Positions 2 to 34,546 of a stretch of DNA of 34,546 bases are shown piece after piece (within the stretch, counting starts at the first letter, position 1; the number at the start of each line of letters is the position of its first letter). This DNA is from a virus. The translations under genes were made by a program, and so were the position numbers. The notes beneath the pieces were generated by a model that had not been told where the DNA came from, searched no databases, and worked only from the letters and a program-made list of their open reading frames with translations. The DNA lies in IMG/VR virus record IMGVR_UViG_3300032333_000201, positions 1-34,546 of that record. One strand, given 5' to 3'.

Positions 2-402
2 AAGGTATACTACGAACCAAAACAACCGCGTATGATCAGCGATGACTACACGACTGGAACTATCACGGTGACACAGGGTAGCACAACGGTAACCCATTCA
101 GGAACAGGGTTCACTGAAAGCATGGTCGGTCGGTACTTCTATGTTACGGACGGAACTGACGGTAACGACTATCAGATTGTAGATTATACCGACTCAAGTA
201 ACCTCATACTGGAGAATTACTACGAGGGGACTAGTGGTGGAACTAAAGATTTTGTTATAGGCGTAGTGCCTGACATCCCCGACGAATATATCCCATCGAT
301 ACTAGATTATTGTTACGGTAGGTATTACATACGCAGGGGAGATACTAAACTAGGCACTGATTTTCTAGGAATGTATCTGAGTGCGGTCGACGAGTGTAAA
401 GA
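2..402. repeat. Divergent terminal repeat, left copy (partner 34146-34546)
   Basis: Bases 2-402 align without gaps to 34146-34546. From 320 to 402 the match is perfect (83 bp). From 2 to 319 there are about 45 mismatches (roughly 86% identity), nearly all at third codon positions; only two residues change. The pattern shows that the contig wraps around. It also shows that the two ends come from different variants, or that the adaptor gene is really duplicated. Confidence 0.9.
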
Positions 403-2405: not shown

Positions 2406-2645
2406 ATGGGTGATAGTAGATATAGTCAAAGACCGGCTAGAGAGTTTTCTTGGGCGTCTAAGCCTGAGGCCAAACTTACCAACGTTATACCATCTGTTGT
2501 CGACCCCGTGCAAACTAGGATAGCTCCCAGAACCGTTGGAACTGGCTCAAACAGAGGCGAGTTAATCATCAAAGGTTTGATAAAAGTAGTTGACACCAAT
2601 AACAATACGATGATAATGTTGGGGTATAAAAAGGAGTCGTTCTAG
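2406..2645 (+). CDS. Small virion-associated protein, unknown
   Basis: A 79-aa protein starting directly after the preceding TAG, with a GGAGGG ribosome binding site inside the end of the upstream gene. The N-terminal half is basic and polar; the C-terminal half (GELIIKGLIKVVDTNNNTMIMLGYKKESF) reads as a short beta-hairpin. Such small proteins with a hydrophobic beta C-terminus often sit beside podovirus tail genes. I do not recognise a family. Its position between the propeller protein and the repeat proteins implies a structural role. Confidence 0.6.
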   Translation: MGDSRYSQRPAREFSWASKPEAKLTNVIPSVVDPVQTRIAPRTVGTGSNRGELIIKGLIKVVDTNNNTMIMLGYKKESF

Positions 2646-3422
2646 ATGTCCTTACCTGTATCAACTTACACAAGCAATACCTCAGAAATTGTATCTAGTT
2701 TAGACTATGGCTTAAAAATGGCTAAATCTGGTTTTGATGTTCAGACAGCACGTGAGGATAATTTGCTGTATAACTCATCGTGGCCATCATTAGCTATAGT
2801 TAAGGTAACCTCATCATCCGACGGCTCACCGATAGCACACACCTTGCCATATCCAACCCTTGCTATCCAACTAGGGGACACCGTAAGCCCGACAAGCTAT
2901 ACCGGTATGGTTCCTCTGGATACCGATAGCACCTATGTCTATCCAGATTCTCCTGGCACTATAGTGATCTACAACTTAGATATATCTACAGACATAGACT
3001 ATCCTTATTCTGTAAAAACCCAGGTTAGATCAACCTATAATCCAGATTATGGTATAAAAATTGTCAAATCAGGTTCAGATATAGAGAGCAATGATCTAAG
3101 AGATTTTATTTTACATACTAGAGCTGGTTCGCCTATGGTGTTGGCTGTCAAAACAGAGGAAACGGTTAGTACGGTGAACCCAACCGTTTTACAGTACACT
3201 AATCCCATAGGCTACCCATGTTTTGTATTCGGATATGTCCAAAGAACAGGTGGGAGATACGATATATCCCCACCTGGCGGCCAAGCTTACCCAATCACGT
3301 TTTCGGACGGTACTACTAGTTATATTGATCTATCATCTACACCACCTTATACCGGTAAAGCCTCGCTAGTCATACTCAGAAACCCTATGTTTGCTAGTGA
3401 ATACGTGGAAGCTACCTACTAA
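2646..3422 (+). CDS. Tail-region protein with two YGLK-type repeats
   Basis: 258 aa, beta-rich. It contains two copies of a unit that begins DYGLKMAKSGFDVQT (about residue 20) and DYGIKIVKSGSDIES (about residue 137). Each is followed by a polar stretch, then a hydrophobic strand ending in VKV or VKT. A third copy opens the next gene, so the two genes probably arose by duplication. Similar short YGLK-like proteins occur beside tail genes of many phages and are taken as minor virion components. The start follows GGAG at 2634 and the upstream stop immediately. Molecular role unknown. Confidence 0.65.
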   Translation: MSLPVSTYTSNTSEIVSSLDYGLKMAKSGFDVQTAREDNLLYNSSWPSLAIVKVTSSSDGSPIAHTLPYPTLAIQLGDTVSPTSYTGMVPLDTDSTYVYPDSPGTIVIYNLDISTDIDYPYSVKTQVRSTYNPDYGIKIVKSGSDIESNDLRDFILHTRAGSPMVLAVKTEETVSTVNPTVLQYTNPIGYPCFVFGYVQRTGGRYDISPPGGQAYPITFSDGTTSYIDLSSTPPYTGKASLVILRNPMFASEYVEATY

Positions 3423-4746: not shown

Positions 4747-6689
4747 TGGCATATACACTCACCGATCAGGATAAACAATTAGCTAATAGGATGGCCGAAC
4801 AACGATTAGCGGTCGACCGTCAAAATGTTGTAGCAAAACCGAAAGATAATGGGAATTGGTTTACTAATTCATTATCCACAGTTGGTGGTATTCTCGGTGG
4901 TATCGGTGGTTCATTCTTTGGCCCTGGTATTGGTACAGCCGCCGGTGGTGCTGCAGGTGCAGGAGCTGGTAAATGGCTAGAAAACCTTTTTGAGGGTAAT
5001 AAAGACCTCGGGGACGGCGTACTGGGTGAAGCTGCTTTCGGTACGTTAGGTGGTATTGGTAAGGGATTGTCTGCGATCAAGGGTGCTGGTGGGGCGCTGA
5101 AGGCTGGTAAGGGGCTAGGTACGGCAGCACAGGTGCTTCGTGCGGGAGTGCCTAAAGTAGCAACAGGAACTTCTACTGGTATTTTATCTGGTTTTGGTGG
5201 AAGAATGAAAGAAGGTTTACAAGATAGGGCAACAACCAACTTGCTAAAACTAACACCATCACAAACTCAAAAAATGCTAGATTCTGGAATAAACCCAACT
5301 GACCTAGCTAAAAGAGCTGCAGCTTTTGGTGGTAGCCCAGCTGATATTATTGGTAAAACTGGCAAGGGTGGCCCGCTGCAAGCTACAATACGTTCACTTG
5401 AGGAAGGAATAAAGACAACCGCAAGTCAAGGCGGTAAGAACATTAAGATTGATGCTACGGATATTATCAAAAATCTGAAGAACGAAGCAAAAGTTATCAA
5501 AAAAGAACTTGGTGGTGGTGCGCGATTAAACCAAATCAATAAAGTCATTGCTGATGCCGAGTCAAAATATAAGGGCGGTGTTACAATCAACAAAGCTCTA
5601 GAAACTTTAAGAACAGCAAACGCACAATTTGGCAAGTCAATCCTTGACGATACTGGTGATGCCGTAGTGAAGGCTGCACAGAAACTTGAGGCAAATACGC
5701 TACGTTCAGCTTTGAAAGAGCGCTTTCCATCTATTGCAAAGGGGCTAGATGACCAATCTGGGCTCATACAACTACGTGAAGTTATGCAACGCGCAAGAGC
5801 TATAGATAAAACTGGTGGATTCAAGACGGGCGCCATAGATCTTACTCGGCCTGGCACATTCGTAGACCCACTACTTAACGCTAAATCAACCTCGAGGGCA
5901 ATACTTGGTGGAGGTAGTGGTCTTAAGATGCCGACTGCATTTAGCGCCTTAAATAGCCCGATGGGTAAAATAGCAAGCACACAGCTAGGGGCTAGAGCGT
6001 TGACTGGAAACTTACCAGGTCAAGAACAGCCAACACCAGAAATGACAGGATTAGAGCAGCCACAAATTGACCCTATGACTGGTATGCCTGCTGTTGAAAG
6101 TTCTATGGGAGGTATGGATGGTTCTAGTGTTCTCGGTGGCGCTAGTCCAGCACAGTCTATTTACACTCGCGAGGCTGTGGCACAAGATATACAACGTGAC
6201 CTACAGGCCACTGGTGGAGCTAATATGGACAAATACATAACACTGTTTAACTTTCTCAATCCCGAGGGTAGCCAAGGTAAACCGAACGCAACAACTCAGA
6301 AGTCACTTTCGCAGAGTGCTAACGCCGACGCAACACTGCAACAGCTAGAGAGTATACTCGCTCAAGCTGGCGGTTCTGGTGGGCCGATCGGTGGTAATAT
6401 CAGTTCATTCTTTGGATCGCTTGGGTTGAACAACGAAGCCAAAACATACAATGATTTGGCAAGTGGTAGCGTGACCCAGATAGCCAAGGCGCTGGGCGAA
6501 ACAGGCGCGATGAGCGACGCAGACCGCGTCGCCTACGCGAACTTGATACCACGCATAACGGACACACCAGCAGTGGCTTCTGCCAAGTTTGCAGCGCTCA
6601 GGCAAAGAATGGAAACTGCCAAAGGCAACACTCTTCAATACGGTGCTGGTGACGGTGTAGCAGAAGCGCTCGCCGCAGCGGGTTACTAG
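4746..6689 (+). CDS. Large internal virion / DNA-ejection protein candidate
   Basis: 647 aa. Residues about 40-80 form a long glycine-alanine hydrophobic stretch (GGILGGIGGSFFGPGIGTAA and on), a membrane-inserting feature common in ejection proteins. A helical middle follows (residues 190-370), then a flexible region rich in G, P and M, and a helical C-terminus. There is no lytic-enzyme motif that I can see. The upstream gene encodes a coiled-coil protein of the same presumed class. Its TAG stop overlaps the TAG of the convergent minus-strand gene in a single CTAG. The function is inferred from composition and position. Confidence 0.5.
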   Translation: MAYTLTDQDKQLANRMAEQRLAVDRQNVVAKPKDNGNWFTNSLSTVGGILGGIGGSFFGPGIGTAAGGAAGAGAGKWLENLFEGNKDLGDGVLGEAAFGTLGGIGKGLSAIKGAGGALKAGKGLGTAAQVLRAGVPKVATGTSTGILSGFGGRMKEGLQDRATTNLLKLTPSQTQKMLDSGINPTDLAKRAAAFGGSPADIIGKTGKGGPLQATIRSLEEGIKTTASQGGKNIKIDATDIIKNLKNEAKVIKKELGGGARLNQINKVIADAESKYKGGVTINKALETLRTANAQFGKSILDDTGDAVVKAAQKLEANTLRSALKERFPSIAKGLDDQSGLIQLREVMQRARAIDKTGGFKTGAIDLTRPGTFVDPLLNAKSTSRAILGGGSGLKMPTAFSALNSPMGKIASTQLGARALTGNLPGQEQPTPEMTGLEQPQIDPMTGMPAVESSMGGMDGSSVLGGASPAQSIYTREAVAQDIQRDLQATGGANMDKYITLFNFLNPEGSQGKPNATTQKSLSQSANADATLQQLESILAQAGGSGGPIGGNISSFFGSLGLNNEAKTYNDLASGSVTQIAKALGETGAMSDADRVAYANLIPRITDTPAVASAKFAALRQRMETAKGNTLQYGAGDGVAEALAAAGY

Positions 6690-6934
6690 TCTTTAACGAC
6701 TAACTTAGCAACCTTAGCACCCTGCTCAAGTATCTCCTCAAAGTTTAGGGTTATTTCCTTATCGACTAGCTCGTACCTACTAGCAATGTTCTGAACGATG
6801 CGAGAGTATATAAAGTCCTGGGCAGCTTTTGCCTGTTGTACAAGTGCCATGAGTGAGGCAACCTCAACAATTTCCTCTTCGGTTAAATCGTAACGCTGTT
6901 CGCCTTTGTTTAGTAATTCGTCTTTTTTGCTCAT
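6686..6934 (-). CDS. Small helical protein, last gene of chaperonin operon
   Basis: 82 aa, charged and helical (MSKKDELLNKGEQRYDLTE, then a helix through residues 20-60). No family recognised. It overlaps the upstream gene by ATGA, so it is translationally coupled to the groES-groEL message, and its stop codon interlocks with the stop of the convergent ejection gene. No terminator fits between them. It may be a substrate-specific factor or an unrelated passenger. Confidence 0.65.
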   Translation of the reverse strand: MSKKDELLNKGEQRYDLTEEEIVEVASLMALVQQAKAAQDFIYSRIVQNIASRYELVDKEITLNFEEILEQGAKVAKLVVKD

Positions 6935-7167
6935 TCTATATTCCTTTCAATTCCATATTGTTTACCTGCTTCATCTTTTCCCCAAGCCTCAATATATTCC
7001 TGGTTCACCTGGCTACCCTTGTAGGGCTGCACAATATCCCTGGCGTACTCTTCGCGCATTCTATCTCGCACATACTGGCGATGCAGGGGGTGTTCCCTAT
7101 TTTCAGACTTTGGGATGACATTCTTAACTAACTTACCATTGACAATAGTGCCGATGGTACGGCGCAT
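6931..7167 (-). CDS. Small basic protein in chaperonin operon, unknown
   Basis: 78 aa. It begins MRRTIGTIVNGKLVKNVIP and has a charged middle (HPLHRQYVRDRMREEYARD), with a polar tail. It overlaps both neighbours (TAATG upstream, ATGA downstream). The sequence has the feel of short phage proteins found beside head or tail genes, but I cannot name a family. Expression is predicted from the single promoter at 9321-9350. Confidence 0.65.
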   Translation of the reverse strand: MRRTIGTIVNGKLVKNVIPKSENREHPLHRQYVRDRMREEYARDIVQPYKGSQVNQEYIEAWGKDEAGKQYGIERNIE

Positions 7168-7439
7168 TAGAGTGTTACGCCTGTATCAGATACGCCGAAC
7201 GCCTGTGTGTCTTCAAAAACCTCATCTTCTTTGCTCGGTACTACCCCACCGAAAGGACTGTATGCAGGATTGGCCGCTAGCTTTTCACGGAGTTTTTGCG
7301 AGTCACTAATGATGTTCACCATGGGGTCGGGCGATACTGGATAATCATTGTCATAGTCCTTGCCCTCACAGAGCGACATGAACTTTGCAATTTCCTCGGG
7401 CGTACCCGAGTATTCATCGCTATTTATAAATGCTCTCAT
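7167..7439 (-). CDS. Small acidic protein downstream of groEL, unknown
   Basis: 90 aa, acidic and proline-containing, largely extended or disordered, with no membrane segment. The ATG overlaps the groEL stop as ATGA, so production should be tied to chaperonin translation. It could be a partner or client of the phage chaperonin, but nothing in the sequence proves that. Confidence 0.65.
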   Translation of the reverse strand: MRAFINSDEYSGTPEEIAKFMSLCEGKDYDNDYPVSPDPMVNIISDSQKLREKLAANPAYSPFGGVVPSKEDEVFEDTQAFGVSDTGVTL

Positions 7440-9010
7440 CGTCGTACCATTTCTTTCATTTCTTTATCTGCTTCGTCGCTGAAAGTGATAATCACAGTGG
7501 TAGTTATAAGACGACTAGCGACAGAAGCGGCATTTCGCACAACCTCTTTAATGACTAGCGCGGGGTCAAGTATGCCCGCCTTGCGTAAGTCGATAGGTTG
7601 TTCTGTCGGGTTCTTTAGATCGTAACCGTATCCAACAGGCTTGGCCAGCATGTGCATGAGCTTATAGTCGGCTTTCTCGCCCGCGTTTGCCAGAAGCTCC
7701 CTAAATAGTTCCTTCAGTACGTCGTCAAAAGGAGTACCAGTGACACGAGCTAAGGCAGTACCGCCACCAGGGACAGTCCCGTCGCGTTTAGCAGCTTGCA
7801 ATGCACACACCGCGTCGTCGATGCGTAGGCGCAACTCTTCACGGTCAATATCGGTAGGAGCGCCGACCTTAACGATACCTATTTTACCTTTGAGCCGAGC
7901 GATGCGATCTTTAATAACGGTGATTGTAATACCCGCCAGCTCACCCTCAAGCTGTTTTTGTAATTCCTCGATACGGTGGTCAACGTCCACCTGTTCGCCC
8001 GCACCGTTCATAATAGTGGTAGATAATTCCTCAACCATAACGCGCTCGGCAGCACCTAGGTACTCTATGTCGAAGTTATTAAAGTTTTCACCCTGACCAT
8101 AGACACGCCCACCAGTCATAAGTGCAACATCGTCTAGTACGATTGACTTCATGCCAGAGGTAGCAGGGATGCCCGCAACTGTAGGAACGATAGAGTTTGT
8201 GCCACGCTCGGTGACAAGGTATTCTAGTGCGTCGTGGATAACCTCGCCCAGAATCAATATCTCTTTATGGCCCGCATTTTTTACACGGCTAATAATAGAA
8301 GCCATTTCTCGCGCCTCAGATATAACCTTGTCAGTTAAGAATACAGGTACTTTTTCAAAGTCAGATGATAGACTGCCACCGTCTTTCACTAGTCGTACAT
8401 CGGTGAAACCTTTACGCATATAAAAGCCATCTATGACCTCACCGTGTACGCCAAGTCCAGTATGTTCCTCGACAGTAATACCACCGTCACCAACTTCGCT
8501 CACCATTTCGGCAAGTAGTTCGGCAATAGCGTCGTCACCAGAGGAAACTTTGGCAACGTGCAGCAAGTCTTTTTCATTCAAAGGGGTCTTGATTGAATCG
8601 ATGTATTCGATGGCCTTTTCGGCCGTCTCGTCAATCATCTTCGCAACTTCCATTTGATTGTAGCCTGACCCTATAAGCTTGCGACCCGCCATATATAGAT
8701 GATACGTAAGGATAGCAACGGCAGTCGTGCCGTCACCAACGACGGCATTATTCTTCTCGCTAGCCTGTAGCACAGCTTTGGCGGCTATATTAGCAGCACG
8801 ATCTTTGATGGTCACTTTTTTCAGGTTGGTTACACCGTCGCGGGACAGTTTTGCAGCACCGATAGGCCAGTTGTGTTCATACATGACATTTCCAGCTTTT
8901 GGGCCATAAGCAGCGCGAGCCACTTCATACATAGTAGTAATACCGTCAGTTATTTTGCTTCGTGCGTCGTCACCGTAAATAATATCTTTTGCGAATAGAT
9001 CAGGCTTCAT
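7436..9010 (-). CDS. groEL: Phage-encoded group I chaperonin GroEL
   Basis: 524 aa, alignable with bacterial GroEL over its whole length (E. coli 548 aa). The three aspartates needed for ATP binding and hydrolysis are present: SRDGVT (D58, equivalent to D52), VGDGTTAVAIL (D93, equivalent to D87) and the IDDAVCALQAA motif before PGGGTALARV (equivalent to D398). The apical domain (EEHTGLGVHGEVIDGFYMRKG) is recognisable but diverged. The C-terminus ends MKEMVRR and lacks the flexible GGM tail that lines the cavity of most GroELs. It is coupled to groES, overlapping by 11 bp. It presumably folds large phage structural proteins such as the capsid protein. Confidence 0.95.
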   Translation of the reverse strand: MKPDLFAKDIIYGDDARSKITDGITTMYEVARAAYGPKAGNVMYEHNWPIGAAKLSRDGVTNLKKVTIKDRAANIAAKAVLQASEKNNAVVGDGTTAVAILTYHLYMAGRKLIGSGYNQMEVAKMIDETAEKAIEYIDSIKTPLNEKDLLHVAKVSSGDDAIAELLAEMVSEVGDGGITVEEHTGLGVHGEVIDGFYMRKGFTDVRLVKDGGSLSSDFEKVPVFLTDKVISEAREMASIISRVKNAGHKEILILGEVIHDALEYLVTERGTNSIVPTVAGIPATSGMKSIVLDDVALMTGGRVYGQGENFNNFDIEYLGAAERVMVEELSTTIMNGAGEQVDVDHRIEELQKQLEGELAGITITVIKDRIARLKGKIGIVKVGAPTDIDREELRLRIDDAVCALQAAKRDGTVPGGGTALARVTGTPFDDVLKELFRELLANAGEKADYKLMHMLAKPVGYGYDLKNPTEQPIDLRKAGILDPALVIKEVVRNAASVASRLITTTVIITFSDEADKEMKEMVRR

Positions 9011-9314
9011 CGTTTAATTCATATCCTCTTAATTTATCTAACTGTATAAAAACAATGTCGCCGTTTATGGCCGTATCGTAAAAAGTAGCATCGGCATCGG
9101 CATATTTTGCCCACCAGACTTTTTTATTTAGTAGGTCGTTAAATGTTTTTCCTTTGGCAAATTCCTTGGTGGAATCGTCTTCGTGTAGTCTGAATAGTAC
9201 GCCAGATTGTGGTGTATCAAAACGGTCGTCACCCTTAAATTGAGTTCCCTCTATTTGGGTCGTGTCAATAACCGCTAATCCATACCCTGGCATAGGGATT
9301 TTTGTTGATTGCAT
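9000..9314 (-). CDS. groES: Phage GroES-like co-chaperonin
   Basis: 104 aa. The first strand PMPGYGLAVIDTTQ matches the GroES start. A longer variable segment with SGVLF occupies the mobile-loop position, where GroES has a hydrophobic tripeptide that docks on GroEL. It ends with a GroES-like hairpin (NGDIVFIQLDKLRGYEL). It is slightly longer than GroES (97 aa) and close in size to T4 gp31. I chose the ATG at 9314, not the more distal one at 9356, because protein similarity begins here. A -10 (TGCTACAAT) also ends six bases before it, implying a leaderless message. Confidence 0.8.
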   Translation of the reverse strand: MQSTKIPMPGYGLAVIDTTQIEGTQFKGDDRFDTPQSGVLFRLHEDDSTKEFAKGKTFNDLLNKKVWWAKYADADATFYDTAINGDIVFIQLDKLRGYELNDEA

Positions 9315-9320
9315 GCGATC

Positions 9321-9350
9321 ATTGTAGCATACAGCCCAGAGTGGTACAAT
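9321..9350. promoter_or_regulatory. Symmetrical bidirectional promoter (groES minus / fibre operon plus)
   Basis: The 30-bp segment starts ATTGTA and ends TACAAT. Read leftward, TGC-TACAAT (9329-9321) is an extended -10, with TTGTAC at 9349-9344 exactly 17 bp upstream as a -35. Read rightward, TGG-TACAAT (9342-9350) is an extended -10, with TTGTAG at 9322-9327 also 17 bp upstream. Each promoter's -10 is thus the other's -35, so RNA polymerase can occupy only one orientation at a time. Confidence 0.7.
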
Positions 9351-9356
9351 GAACAC

Positions 9357-11737: not shown

Positions 11738-12205
11738 ATGGCACTGAATCCACCCCTACAGCGTGACGCAAATTGGCGAACAGTAGACAATAACGAGGCA
11801 TATGTACTAGAGTCTACATGGACATTTGTAGCTGGCACCACTGGTGCGACAGGCGCACATACGGTTTTTACTGCAACTGGAAATTGTCTCGTCAATGTCT
11901 TTGCAGTATGCGACACCGACCTAACCTCTGGCGGAGCAGCCACTATCGAAATGGGCGTTGCTGGAAATACGGCGTCCCTTATAGCACAAACAACCGCTAC
12001 TGACCTTGACGATGGTGAGATATGGGTTGACGCTAGCCCTGCTGTTGGCATTGAAGCATTGCCTGGCATGAAAGTTCTTAATGACGGCGCGGACATTATC
12101 CTAACTGTTGGAACTACGACCGTAACAGGTGGTGCGGTTGATATATATTGTATCTACCGACCTCTTTCAGCTGGCGCAAGTATAACCGTAACGACCCCTG
12201 CGTAG
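11738..12205 (+). CDS. Conserved-type small virion structural protein
   Basis: 155 aa, beta-rich, cytosolic. The internal pattern TDLTSGGAATIEMGVAGNTA followed by LIAQTTATDLDDGEIW and IYCIYRPLS resembles a widespread small phage structural protein found near tail or fibre genes. I use the ATG at 11738, not the more distal one at 11681. AAAGGAG lies just before it, and the distal ATG falls within the promoter (it overlaps the -10 TATAAT) upstream of the transcribed hairpin. Precise position in the virion unknown. Confidence 0.65.
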   Translation: MALNPPLQRDANWRTVDNNEAYVLESTWTFVAGTTGATGAHTVFTATGNCLVNVFAVCDTDLTSGGAATIEMGVAGNTASLIAQTTATDLDDGEIWVDASPAVGIEALPGMKVLNDGADIILTVGTTTVTGGAVDIYCIYRPLSAGASITVTTPA

Positions 12206-12216
12206 GAACCTGGACA

Positions 12217-13173
12217 GTGGCAGATTTTCAAATACCAGATAAAACACTACTCACGGCGGTTGATCGCGCCGTTGATTCGTGGCTGATATATGATAATAGT
12301 GCAACAGCGCTAAAACGTACCACAGCAAATTATGCTTTAGACCTGACTTCTCACCCTGTTGGCGTTGACGACACCCAAACGCTTACCGCTAAGACATTGA
12401 CTAGCCCGACTATCAACGGCGCTACACTATCCGGTACACTAACGGGTACATATACAATAGGCGGTACCCCAACATTTCCTAGTTCGGTTGTCACGTTGAC
12501 TGGTTCACAGACACTAACCAATAAGGTGTTAACTAGTCCTACGATAAATAGCGCTACTATTACTAATCCAACATTGGCGGTCGATACGGTAAGTGAGCAT
12601 ACTAGCGCCAACGGTGTCACTATCGACAGTCTCAACATCAAAGATGGTAAGCTTAATACTAATGACTCGGTGGTGACGGCTAATATTACTAACAGTGCTG
12701 TCACTACAGCAAAAATAGCTGATGGATCAGTCACTAACGCGAAACTAGCTACTAGTGCTGGTGAGGTTGGTGGTGCATGGGTAGCATGGACGCCAGCATG
12801 GACAGACCTAACGGTCGGAGCTGGTGGTACTAACACGGGATATTACACTACCGTTGGTAAGACGGTAAAGTTTAGGGTCTTCTTCCAGTATGGAACGGGA
12901 AGCGCCGTTGGAACACTGCCGAAATTAACCCTACCAGTCGCCTCGGTCAATTATGTAGCTGGGTATCCACAAATTGGAAACGGTGTTGCGCACGACAATG
13001 GAGGTGTGATTTATCCACTGATGTGTGCATGGCTGTCAACTACAACCGCTGTACTTTTTGCAGAAAACTCGTCAGCAACGTATGTAGGACATACTTCCGT
13101 AGCCGCTGCTGTACCGTTCACCTTTGCGAGCGGAGATTACATCACGATAATCGGCGAGTATGAGAAAGCATAG
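12217..13173 (+). CDS. Tail-fibre-like protein with SPTI repeats (paralog of 32947 gene)
   Basis: 318 aa from GTG 12217. This start is preferred over ATG 12148 because it gives the N-terminus MADFQIPDKTLLTAVDRAVD. That matches MADVTITGLTTLTSIDRAAD of the 32947 product, and it avoids a long overlap with the upstream gene. A fibre shaft follows with QTLTxKTLTSPTIN, SQTLTNKVLTSPTIN and NPTLAVDTVSEHT repeats, then KIADGSVTNAKLA-type trimerisation repeats around residue 180. The last part is a C-terminal beta domain (WTPAWTDLTVGAGGTNTGYYT onward) like phage receptor-binding heads. A receptor-binding fibre is the likely role. Confidence 0.7.
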   Translation: MADFQIPDKTLLTAVDRAVDSWLIYDNSATALKRTTANYALDLTSHPVGVDDTQTLTAKTLTSPTINGATLSGTLTGTYTIGGTPTFPSSVVTLTGSQTLTNKVLTSPTINSATITNPTLAVDTVSEHTSANGVTIDSLNIKDGKLNTNDSVVTANITNSAVTTAKIADGSVTNAKLATSAGEVGGAWVAWTPAWTDLTVGAGGTNTGYYTTVGKTVKFRVFFQYGTGSAVGTLPKLTLPVASVNYVAGYPQIGNGVAHDNGGVIYPLMCAWLSTTTAVLFAENSSATYVGHTSVAAAVPFTFASGDYITIIGEYEKA

Positions 13174-16696: not shown

Positions 16697-17260
16697 ATGA
16701 GCAATAAGCTATTATCGGAGATTGTCAAAACGAATGAACTTGCAAAGTTTGCTCGTGCTGATGAGTTCTTAGAGTTTGTAAACCAAGAACCACCAGAGAT
16801 ATTCATTGAAGAACATCCTATGGTTAAAGGTGTTAAGTATATTCCTATTGGAAATACTGAATTAACACTTGATAAGATCTTTCAATATTGGAAAGTAGAA
16901 ATCTTAAAAACAGAAGTAATGTTTAACTCAATAGCTGTTACAGTACGAGTTCACTATAAACACCCTATTAGCGGTGAATGGATGAGCCAAGACGGTGTTG
17001 GTGCTGTCGGAGTACAGACAGATAAAGGCTTTACGGCTGCTGATCTGGCTCATATTAAACAAGATGCTGTTATGAAAGCACTACCGGCTGCAAAGTCGTT
17101 TGCTATTAAAGACGCCGTCGATCATATAGGTAAGATATTTGGACGCGATTTAAACCGAAAGAATACGTTTGATTTTAGTCCGTCGTATGCAACTACAGCC
17201 GTTAGAGACAAACTACAGGCGCAAAAAGATAGATTGCGTAAGAATCTGGAGAAAAAGTAA
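16697..17260 (+). CDS. Single-strand annealing recombinase (Rad52-like) candidate
   Basis: 187 aa. The central beta-sheet (EILKTEVMFNSIAVTVRVHY, then GEWMSQDGVGAVGVQTDKG) and the following helix pattern DAVMKALPAAKSFAIKDAVDHIGKIFG are what Rad52/Sak-type phage annealing proteins show: beta strands, then a helix with conserved A, K and G that carries the annealing site. The Lys/Arg-rich C-terminus could bind DNA. It is coupled through TAATG to an exonuclease, the usual recombinase-exonuclease pair. First gene of the early recombination operon. Confidence 0.65.
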   Translation: MSNKLLSEIVKTNELAKFARADEFLEFVNQEPPEIFIEEHPMVKGVKYIPIGNTELTLDKIFQYWKVEILKTEVMFNSIAVTVRVHYKHPISGEWMSQDGVGAVGVQTDKGFTAADLAHIKQDAVMKALPAAKSFAIKDAVDHIGKIFGRDLNRKNTFDFSPSYATTAVRDKLQAQKDRLRKNLEKK

Positions 17261-17940
17261 TGCAGATTATAGCAGTATCACAAAGTGAAGACCGAGAGGC
17301 ATGGTTAGAGGGGCGACGAGGGGTTATTACAGGCACTAAAGCTAATAAGGTAGCGCCACCTAAAAGGGGCAGCGGTATACCTCAAGGAATCTACGAACTA
17401 CTCGCAGAGACGGTCGCTGTATCAAAAGACGGCGAACCAGAGCGAGATAGGGGTTTAAGGCTTGAGAATGAGGGGCTTGAACTCACGGCCAAAAAGTATA
17501 AACTAAATTTGAATTTAGACCCTGGCATGTGGCTCTCAGATGATGGTAAACTTGGTGTTTCACCTGATGCATCCGAAGACTCTAAAAAACCAACCTATGC
17601 CGCAGAAAACAAAAGTTTAGATACTAAGAACCACTTACAAGCTATACTAAATGACTGGATAGCCAAAAAGACACCAGGGTATAACCCACTGAATAGCTTA
17701 AAAATTGCTACCTCAGATTTTACTGCTCAAGTGATTCAATACTTTATGATAAATCTTGACTTAGAAACATTGTATTTTGGATTATATGATGATCGAGTTG
17801 CACTTGATAACTGTGTTCATTATGTAATTGAGATTAAACGCGAACATGTTGCAGAGTTTATTGACAGCCAAGAACTGTACGAACGAGATGCACTAGCTAA
17901 AGTAAACCAAATGATTGAGATATTAAAGGAGATAAAATAA
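17260..17940 (+). CDS. YqaJ/lambda-exonuclease-like recombination nuclease
   Basis: 226 aa, PD-(D/E)XK family. Motifs in order: REAWLEGRRGVITGT (residues 12-26, substrate-binding R and G), RGLRLENEGLE (E69), GVSPDA (D103) and AAENKSL (E116-x-K118), with QVIQYFMINLD later as in YqaJ proteins. The arrangement D-x12-ExK is intact, so the enzyme should be active as a 5'-3' exonuclease that feeds single strands to the annealing protein encoded just upstream. Overlaps both neighbours by one base. Confidence 0.8.
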   Translation: MQIIAVSQSEDREAWLEGRRGVITGTKANKVAPPKRGSGIPQGIYELLAETVAVSKDGEPERDRGLRLENEGLELTAKKYKLNLNLDPGMWLSDDGKLGVSPDASEDSKKPTYAAENKSLDTKNHLQAILNDWIAKKTPGYNPLNSLKIATSDFTAQVIQYFMINLDLETLYFGLYDDRVALDNCVHYVIEIKREHVAEFIDSQELYERDALAKVNQMIEILKEIK

Positions 17941-18251
17941 TGGACGACAACAGGCCCAAGTTATATGCAAGACTGAGAGCACGGATAGGGAGTTACGAGC
18001 AAGACGGTAAAAGCAAAAATCGTTACGCAGACATAGGGGTTCTATTTGCCTCACCTCATTTCTCAAATATGTATATGCAAATAGATACATTACCTATATC
18101 AAAAGATTGGGATGGTAGAATCTACGTTAATCAGATAGAGTCAAAAGAAGATGATAAACCTTTGAAACAACACGAAGTTATCAGCACAGTATTAACAAAG
18201 TCTGATATTGACTCAGATAAACCTATCGACTTAGCTGATATACCTTTTTAA
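17940..18251 (+). CDS. SSB-like single-stranded DNA-binding protein candidate
   Basis: 103 aa. The beta-strand pattern of the first 65 residues (KLYARLRARIGSYEQDGK, then YADIGVLFASP and DWDGRIYVNQI) could form an OB-type fold. The acidic C-terminus ends DLADIPF, matching the DxDIPF tip by which bacterial SSB recruits partners. The gene lies between the annealing/exonuclease pair and an HNH nuclease. The assignment rests mainly on the C-terminal tip and context. Confidence 0.6.
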   Translation: MDDNRPKLYARLRARIGSYEQDGKSKNRYADIGVLFASPHFSNMYMQIDTLPISKDWDGRIYVNQIESKEDDKPLKQHEVISTVLTKSDIDSDKPIDLADIPF

Positions 18252-32426: not shown

Positions 32427-32945
32427 ATGTCAATAGTCGCACCGAATACCCCAAGCACAGCATGGATACGAGATAGTGGTGAGGTCATTACAACCACGAC
32501 AGATGTGCTGGTCGATGAGTCCGGTAACTTTTTTGTTGACGAATCGGGCAATAACTTGCTCGATAGCGTTTCGACAGACGGTTACTCACCTGAGACGAGC
32601 TGGAACGACGAATCTATGGGCGCTGTTATGTGGGCCGAGGCCCACGAACCTATCGCCGATTTACACAGTCGCACCACAGTTCAAGGCGACACACGCACAA
32701 CGGCACAGGGCGACACTAGAACGCTGTATGCCTCATCGGTCAATCGTTCACTCCCGCACACATGGAATGACGAAAACATCGAGAATACAATGTGGGCGAA
32801 TGCGTTTGAGGCTACGATGACTATCTACACAAGAACAACAGCTCAAGGAGCTACTCGCACCACCGCTCAAGGCGATACGCTAACCACACAAAGTTCCGAC
32901 GCGAATAGACAACCTTTAACGACATGGAGTGAGGACGAATACTAG
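32427..32945 (+). CDS. Repeat-containing virion protein
   Basis: 172 aa built from two similar halves. Each has a W-containing unit (SPETSWNDESMGAVMWAEA; LPHTWNDENIENTMWANA) followed by RTTxQGxTRTTAQGDT. The T/R/Q/G repeats look like a stalk or beta-solenoid strip. Located directly before a fibre gene. Exact function unknown. Confidence 0.55.
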   Translation: MSIVAPNTPSTAWIRDSGEVITTTTDVLVDESGNFFVDESGNNLLDSVSTDGYSPETSWNDESMGAVMWAEAHEPIADLHSRTTVQGDTRTTAQGDTRTLYASSVNRSLPHTWNDENIENTMWANAFEATMTIYTRTTAQGATRTTAQGDTLTTQSSDANRQPLTTWSEDEY

Positions 32946-32946
32946 C

Positions 32947-33738
32947 ATGGCAGACGTTACAATAACAGGACTAACCACACTCACCTCTATTGATAGGGCA
33001 GCAGACTATTTTGAGGTTGCTGACGCGTCCGATTCTGGTAATTCGTTTAAGACAACCGTTAATAACATGCTTAATGTTACCTCGCAACCTGTTGGGATTA
33101 ACGACTCACAAACATTGACAAACAAAACTATTACTACCCCGACACTTACTGTCAACGATGATTCATTTACTTTACAAGATAACTCGGACACCACTAAAAA
33201 GCTGCAGTTTCAACTTTCTGGCATAACTACCGCAACCACAAGAACACTAACCATACCAAACGTTTCCGATACGCTCGTAACGCTCACCGCTAGCCAGACG
33301 CTGACCAATAAAACGCTAACGAGTCCAACGATAACGAGCGCTACCATATCAAACCCGACATTGACTGTTGATACGGTTAGCGAGCATACTGCAGCGAACG
33401 GCGTAACAGTTGATGGTGTGTTGCTTAAAGATGCTGGCGTTACTGCCACAGGGAACCTAGCTGTCACCGGAACATCTACGCTAACTGGTGCGGTGTCAAC
33501 AGCCGGTACGGTAAGTGTTAGAACCGGTACAGCTACCCCTGCGGGAGGTGCGACTACTTCTGGCGTAAAATTTGGTACGACCACCAACTTTGGTATATTC
33601 TGGGGTTCTGGTGTCCCCACGCTTTCGGCCGCACAAGGTTCTATATATCTTAGGTCAGACGGCTCCTCTACTTCTACGAGACTTTACGTTAATACTACTG
33701 GGTCAACAACCTGGACTAACTTTACGAGTGCAGCATAA
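32947..33738 (+). CDS. Tail-fibre-like protein (paralog of 12217 gene)
   Basis: 263 aa from ATG 32947, preferred over 32929 because it lies after the upstream stop and gives MADVTITGLTTLTSIDRAAD. It shares N-terminus and shaft repeats (SQTLTNKTLTSPTI; SNPTLTVDTVSEHTAANGV) with the 12217 product, but its C-terminal head differs (GGATTSGVKFGTTTNFGIFW onward). It may be a second fibre, or a recombination partner of the other. Confidence 0.65.
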   Translation: MADVTITGLTTLTSIDRAADYFEVADASDSGNSFKTTVNNMLNVTSQPVGINDSQTLTNKTITTPTLTVNDDSFTLQDNSDTTKKLQFQLSGITTATTRTLTIPNVSDTLVTLTASQTLTNKTLTSPTITSATISNPTLTVDTVSEHTAANGVTVDGVLLKDAGVTATGNLAVTGTSTLTGAVSTAGTVSVRTGTATPAGGATTSGVKFGTTTNFGIFWGSGVPTLSAAQGSIYLRSDGSSTSTRLYVNTTGSTTWTNFTSAA

Positions 33739-33746
33739 GGATAGAT

Positions 33747-34546
33747 ATGATTCAAACATTTACACAACTCTACCAAGAAATCCAAAGCGGCACACAAAGC
33801 ACCAGTGCTAGTGAGCTTGTATTTATCAAACGTGACGCAAACGTCGCAACACAACGCTTTAAAAGTGTTATGCGTCGTCCGTGGTCACGCGTATCAAAGA
33901 AAGCTAATACAGTAGCTAGCCAACAGGATTATCAACTACCACGTAGCGTTTTGCGTCCCACCGGTGTAGATTATTTGTCTGGTAGCACTTATTATCCACT
34001 AAAGGAAATCGCGTCGGAACAAACTTGGAATGCGTTAAATGCTACCATCGGTGCTAGTATCGGTCAGCCTATGTTCTTTTTTCCTAAAGGCAAAGACGTT
34101 ATCTCTATTTTTCCAATCCCATCAACAGCAACCACAGAGGGACTCAAGGTATACTACGAGCCGAAACAACCGCGTATGATCAGTGATGACTATACGACTG
34201 GGACTATTACGGCAACACAAGGTAGCACGACGATCACCCATTCAGGTACAGGATTTACTGAGAGTATGGTTGGTCGGTATTTCTATGTTACTGACGGCAC
34301 TGATGGTAATGACTACCAGATTGTAGACTACACCGACTCAAGTAACCTTATACTGGAAAACTACTACGAGGGAACCAGTGGCGGTACTAAAGACTTTGTT
34401 ATAGGCGTAGTCCCTGACATTCCCGACGAGTATATCCCGTCAATATTGGACTATTGCTATGGCAGGTATTACATACGCAGGGGAGATACTAAACTAGGCA
34501 CTGATTTTCTAGGAATGTATCTGAGTGCGGTCGACGAGTGTAAAGA
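33747..34546 (+). CDS. Head-tail adaptor protein, N-terminal part (3' truncated by window edge)
   Basis: Starts MIQTFTQLYQEIQSGTQSTS after AAGGATAG. The helical and beta N-terminal part (PWSRVSKKANTVASQQDYQL; FFPKGKDVISIFPIPST) is typical of podovirus and siphovirus connector proteins. From KVYYEPKQPR onward it matches the left-edge gene with only two changes. The frame is open at the last base and would be completed by 403-496, giving 297 aa. Confidence 0.7.
   Translation, partial: MIQTFTQLYQEIQSGTQSTSASELVFIKRDANVATQRFKSVMRRPWSRVSKKANTVASQQDYQLPRSVLRPTGVDYLSGSTYYPLKEIASEQTWNALNATIGASIGQPMFFFPKGKDVISIFPIPSTATTEGLKVYYEPKQPRMISDDYTTGTITATQGSTTITHSGTGFTESMVGRYFYVTDGTDGNDYQIVDYTDSSNLILENYYEGTSGGTKDFVIGVVPDIPDEYIPSILDYCYGRYYIRRGDTKLGTDFLGMYLSAVDECK
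34146..34546. repeat. Divergent terminal repeat, right copy (partner 2-402)
   Basis: Aligns at a constant offset of 34,144 to the left end. It is identical in 34464-34546 and about 86% identical before that. The change is abrupt, at 34463/34464. Confidence 0.9.

Follow-up and report, generated by a model that had tools for sequence, protein, structure and literature searches.

The window analysed in this study is the whole of IMG/VR virus record IMGVR_UViG_3300032333_000201, a stretch of 34,546 bases. On its minus strand, positions 6686-9314 carry five overlapping genes in the order groES-like, groEL, orfA, orfB and orfC, preceded by a promoter element. The features are given below in this order, together with the grounds for each assignment (G001 stands for the related record IMGVR_UViG_3300001866_000025).

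9321..9329, minus strand: extended -10 element TGCTACAAT, 6 nt before the groES ATG
9000..9314, minus strand: groES-like co-chaperonin, 104 aa from ATG 9314 (leave-out profile, Cpn10 matches within its family, AlphaFold model)
7436..9010, minus strand: groEL, group I chaperonin, 524 aa (PF00118, PHROG 5725, ATPase aspartates)
7167..7439, minus strand: orfA, 90 aa, without membrane helix (slot shared with the membrane-anchored orfA of relatives; 45% identity to the G001 copy)
6931..7167, minus strand: orfB, 78 aa, degenerate zinc ribbon plus QPY..N..F motif (leave-out profile, adjacency to groEL across the clade)
6686..6934, minus strand: orfC, 82 aa, long helix and beta hairpin (71% identity in G001, weak link to other relatives)

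The overlaps between neighbouring genes are 11 nt (groES/groEL), 4 nt (groEL/orfA), 1 nt (orfA/orfB) and 4 nt (orfB/orfC), and the cassette takes up 7.6% of the 34,546 bases. A preliminary description of this DNA had reported a complete GroEL-GroES pair with three overlapping small companion genes, making up about 8% of the genome and reversed relative to the other genes. This was borne out: the five genes were all found, the unit is retained in relatives, and the plus strand carries the other long genes of the window, among them those for small terminase, large terminase, portal, major head protein and endolysin. That description did not mention the connection with head genes, the conservation of the promoter or the fact that GroEL diverges in step with the capsid protein.

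Some observations were also made outside the cassette. The two ends of the window (2-402 and 34146-34546) form a gapless direct repeat of 401 nt with 88.8% identity, and a reading frame continues over the junction; either the genome is circular or terminally redundant, or the repeat is a divergent overlap of the assembly. Three adjacent early genes at 16697-18251, one of them exonuclease-like, match the TM7 phage DolZOral124_53_65 (MG269973.1) at 35-48% and have no match in G001, although G001 is otherwise much closer to the window, a pattern that suggests exchange of a replication/recombination module. The gene at 12148-13173 (61% over 158 aa) and that at 32929-33738 (59%) match a single G001 protein, suggesting the duplication of a tail-fibre-like domain.

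The chaperonin pair and its promoter

Judged from its sequence, the 524-aa protein is certainly GroEL, belonging to the Cpn60 family over its full length: it matches Pfam PF00118 (Cpn60_TCP1) with an E-value of 2e-36 and PHROG 5725 (groEL) with 1e-92 over residues 6-515. For residue-level comparison we aligned it to E. coli GroEL, the numbering of which was checked at D52 and D87. The identity is about 29%. In agreement with the preliminary description, the three ATPase aspartates (equivalents of D52, D87 and D398) are kept, both in the window and in all 54 sequences of the cassette clade defined below, and the GGM tail is missing. The hinge position G375 is occupied by K, N, R or S throughout this clade, as against G in 36 of 43 other sequences. 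Within the apical groove of the window protein, the positions of L237 and L259 are still hydrophobic and those of Y199, Y203, L234 and V264 are altered; the canonical inter-ring residues are not conserved, the 424-445 segment being short and its alignment uncertain. Because of these apical and inter-ring changes, function as a folding cage is not certain. A single-ring architecture was considered in view of the missing canonical contacts and was set aside, this evidence being too weak for such an assignment.

The 104-aa product of the upstream gene gives no Pfam match by itself, while 6 of 14 members of its family match Cpn10, the best at 1.4e-10. The family profile matches solved co-chaperonins in the PDB at 6e-6, and the groES-like reading frame of the window is found, with an E-value of 6e-8, by a profile from which the window and its sister had been left out. 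In structure comparison of the AlphaFold model (pLDDT 79), the 16 best rows were all co-chaperonins, T4 gp31 being at the top (Z 9.1, 2.7 A over 88 residues); Foldseek alone gave just E 6e-3. Profiles and model together point to a genuine but diverged co-chaperonin of the Cpn10/GroES fold. Its mobile loop, described as divergent at the outset, is indeed diverged in the window, with similar place and length, and the GIV or SAVV sequence is present in some relatives.

A standard two-hexamer promoter scan at the groES start detected no promoter. An extended -10 element (TGnTATAAT-like) was, however, found upstream of groES at 21 of 38 loci, as against 1.7 expected in shuffled sequences, and that of the window (TGCTACAAT) ends 6 nt before ATG 9314. 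From this spacing a leaderless mRNA is predicted, and ATG 9314 is thus favoured as the start over an in-frame GTG located upstream at 9356.

The small genes and the retention of the cassette in relatives

Comparison of orfA, orfB and orfC with Pfam and PHROGs gave no convincing family match, and assignment of any of them to a known family was therefore rejected. The hallmark small gene of the cassette is orfB; the window copy was found by a leave-out profile with an E-value of 1.9e-16. In several distant relatives its N-terminus forms a zinc ribbon (CxxC...G-x-Y...CxxC) followed by a QPY...N..F...YP motif, and the ribbon is degenerate in the window copy. Searches by tblastn with three orfB queries against 50,697 phage records did not find the gene, and with two divergent orfB queries the sole match in phage records was MW202566.1. 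The orfA proteins of relatives carry an N-terminal membrane helix in 37 of 44 entries (some duplicated) and a tail with a conserved hydrophobic-PK(S/T)P sequence. The orfA copies of the window and G001 are without this helix, and no homology between the window orfA and that of other relatives was detected by leave-out profile and profile comparison, position alone being in common. As to orfC, the leave-out profile gave an E-value of 0.66 for the window gene, as the best reading frame of the window, and hhalign gave 0.00095 at 22% probability, so homology across the clade, as judged from sequence, is weakly supported. The predicted structure of orfC (pLDDT 79, pTM 0.52) gave no match better than E 0.48 in fold searches. 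Small orfC-like genes are located between groES and groEL in L110, L124 and G047. In addition, a gene of 49-58 aa lies between orfB and orfC in G007, G008, G010, G012 and G025 (loci L075, L079, L078, L076 and L073), four of the five copies looking alike.

A search for the five-gene order in other phages, as had been proposed, was successful. All five genes are present in G001 with a GroEL identity of 72-73%, and the TM7 phage DolZOral124_53_65 carries the same order, opposite to nearly all of its other genes, with a GroEL identity of 31-34%. The order is thus repeated in relatives across 31-73% GroEL identity, and this conservation rules out chance or artefact as the origin of the cassette. 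By a search with the major capsid protein, 45 relatives were obtained. Among 47 records tested, groEL was present in 17 and orfB in exactly the same 17; the remaining records are fragmentary, at about 25 kb or less, and the cassette was found in all the longer genomes of this capsid-defined family. Since many relatives are fragmentary, some family members may lack the cassette.

The groEL search, from which 80 loci were kept, gave orfB downstream on the same strand in 37; two more carry the family groES on contigs ending 371-491 nt past the groEL match, and 41 gave no confident match to the family groES or orfB. A separate orfB search yielded 22 loci, of which 20 have the complete cassette or as much of it as the contig covers; the other two are one with a generic groEL and one without groEL on a 4.5-kb fragment (L193). 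In a tree of 98 GroEL sequences, all 54 cassette sequences (some from one contig) form one clade with a support of 0.987 and without outsiders. This clade represents about 50 viral contigs; on all that extend far enough, groEL is preceded by groES and followed by orfB. No member carrying groEL and groES lacks orfB where enough sequence follows, so that the first of the two refuting outcomes named in the preliminary description, the pair without the small genes, did not occur here for orfB. The second was the occurrence of the small genes in unrelated places. Across the clade orfB lies beside groEL; on the L193 fragment an orfA-like gene and orfB lie by the terminase gene without groEL. A scan of bacterial genomes for the cassette groEL clade returned just two unrelated cellular GroELs. 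A host is recorded for one relative, DolZOral124_53_65, as a Saccharibacteria (TM7) genome, and from this single record Saccharibacteria may be the host of the family.

Relation to the head genes and possible function

The position of the cassette differs between branches. At L135 and L112 the order is small terminase, large terminase, groES, groEL, orfB, portal and major head protein, all in one direction, the small terminase of L135 being PHROG-confirmed. At L110, groES-groEL-orfB is followed directly by portal and then by the capsid gene. In MW202566.1 the order is groES, groEL, a small gene, an unannotated gene with a membrane helix, orfB (E 4e-4), large terminase, portal and capsid. On the L193 fragment, orfB and the orfA-like gene, the latter matched at E 1.6e-4 in a seven-protein search, precede a large terminase gene. 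In the branch of the window, the cassette runs antisense and lies apart from the terminase and portal genes; as read from coordinates, cassette and capsid gene have opposite orientations in 16 of 17 records. From the gene orders of the sister branches, the head module is likely to be the ancestral site, and the reversed position in the window branch looks derived. L135 and L112 also encode a cysteine-rich, zinc-ribbon-like protein between large terminase and groES (2639-3166 and 8859-9350, respectively).

The distances between GroEL sequences follow those between capsid proteins in 22 phages (Mantel r 0.82; 0 of 2000 permutations), indicating that the cassette is an inherited core module, although co-divergence of this kind would follow from plain vertical inheritance too. 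Together with the single deep clade, it rules out recent capture of a host operon.

We consider it probable that the operon encodes a phage-dedicated group I chaperonin for head morphogenesis together with small partners belonging to the head module. The client of the phage GroEL ring and GroES-type lid would be a head protein, with the major capsid protein as the likeliest candidate. T4 offers a precedent: gp31 replaces GroES and so adapts GroEL for folding of the capsid protein gp23 (PMC3012670). In the window lineage the operon lies on the opposite strand behind a host-type promoter of its own and could thus be made before the late genes. The orfA protein, a single-pass membrane protein in most relatives, and the orfB protein, a zinc ribbon in some, may help in assembling the head or portal or in packaging, perhaps by placing this process at the membrane, and orfC may be an accessory either of the chaperonin or of the same head process. 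The dedicated folding machine proposed in the preliminary description stands in so far as the complete pair kept as a unit fits it, the folding function itself being predicted from sequence. Against a role in the head module count the antisense and distant position of the window cassette, the helix-less orfA of the window and the altered apical and inter-ring residues. The more specific proposal, in which the cage is partnered by a membrane-anchored orfA and a zinc-ribbon-derived orfB and couples capsid-protein folding to portal-initiated, membrane-sited head assembly, is put forward only tentatively, and we would sooner expect it to fail than to hold.

The small proteins might instead be lids of the chaperonin or adaptors, the latter as supposed in the preliminary description, which also named clients. 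They would attach to the apical domain of GroEL and either direct substrates or fix the cage to the membrane. In agreement with such a role, overlapping small genes follow groEL throughout the clade, most orfA proteins have the membrane helix and PK(S/T)P tail, and orfC-like genes are sometimes present between groES and groEL. It is made unlikely by L193, where an orfA-like gene and orfB precede terminase on a fragment without groEL, so that these two genes do not strictly depend on the chaperonin as neighbour, and by the window orfA, which is without detectable kinship to other orfA proteins. Since orfA and orfB are found together beside portal or terminase, they are likelier to be partners in head assembly or packaging than obligate chaperonin subunits.

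Somewhat less likely still is a general folding booster, by which the chaperonin would serve the proteostasis of an infected, gene-poor host and not head assembly; the Saccharibacteria host recorded for the sole relative with such a record fits this idea, as does the conserved host-type extended -10 element, which suggests expression independent of late genes, but the cassette adjoins terminase, portal and capsid genes in sister lineages and its GroEL co-diverges with the capsid protein. An operon for host takeover or defence evasion, or a moron, in which GroEL is not a folding cage, is suggested by the reversed orientation of the cassette in the window branch, by its promoter there and by the altered apical groove, and is highly improbable, because all the longer family genomes carry the cassette and co-inherit it with the capsid gene, unlike typical morons, and because the ATPase aspartates are fully kept and the lid gene is retained.

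Comparison with known chaperonin systems

The preliminary description had held that phages encoding both chaperonin subunits are few and mostly of large genome, and this premise is outdated. The groEL gene was found in 241 records of one phage collection and in at least 557 IMG/VR stretches, many of the genomes being of about 35-45 kb; some other phages are annotated with both groEL and groES, and surveys of marine and soil samples found phage GroELs to be common (PMC5332604, PMC8390657). No description of the five-gene cassette was found in the open-licence literature. What is new is that the five genes are conserved as a unit, that this unit is inherited together with the capsid and is linked to the head module, and that it contains three gene families not described before. 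The cassette provides a natural system of small genome size for asking what phage chaperonins fold and whether chaperonins have dedicated partners, and it bears on Saccharibacteria phages, about whose infection biology hardly anything is known.

With bacterial groESL the window shares groES directly before groEL and the ATPase site, and differs from it in the low GroEL identity to E. coli, the missing GGM tail, the replacement of G375 and the three added phage genes. DolZOral124_53_65 has the five-gene order in common with the window; its lid and small genes bear annotation as hypothetical proteins only, and its orfA carries a membrane helix, in contrast to that of the window. MW202566.1 (Caudoviricetes sp., Manatee Spring) likewise carries groES, groEL and small genes including orfB, but its cassette is co-directional with the head genes, its orfB match is weak and its capsid protein is only 28% identical.

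The co-chaperonins T4 gp31 and RB49 CocO are, like the window lid, diverged phage-coded proteins of the GroES fold. T4 and RB49 encode the lid only and borrow the host GroEL, whereas the phage of the window encodes its own GroEL and three small genes, so that, unlike in a gp31-type system, the host GroEL may not be needed. The chaperonins of phages EL, OBP and AR9, which work without a co-chaperonin (PMC7185714, PMC9598537), are also phage-coded, diverged group I GroEL homologues. They belong to giant phages; the cassette clade, with genomes of about 35-45 kb, has a lid gene next to groEL throughout, an arrangement that argues against membership in the EL/OBP/AR9 type. The phage chaperonins characterised so far operate without a lid, and phages that encode the lid only use the cage of the host; the cassette family has both parts, which evolve in step with its capsid.
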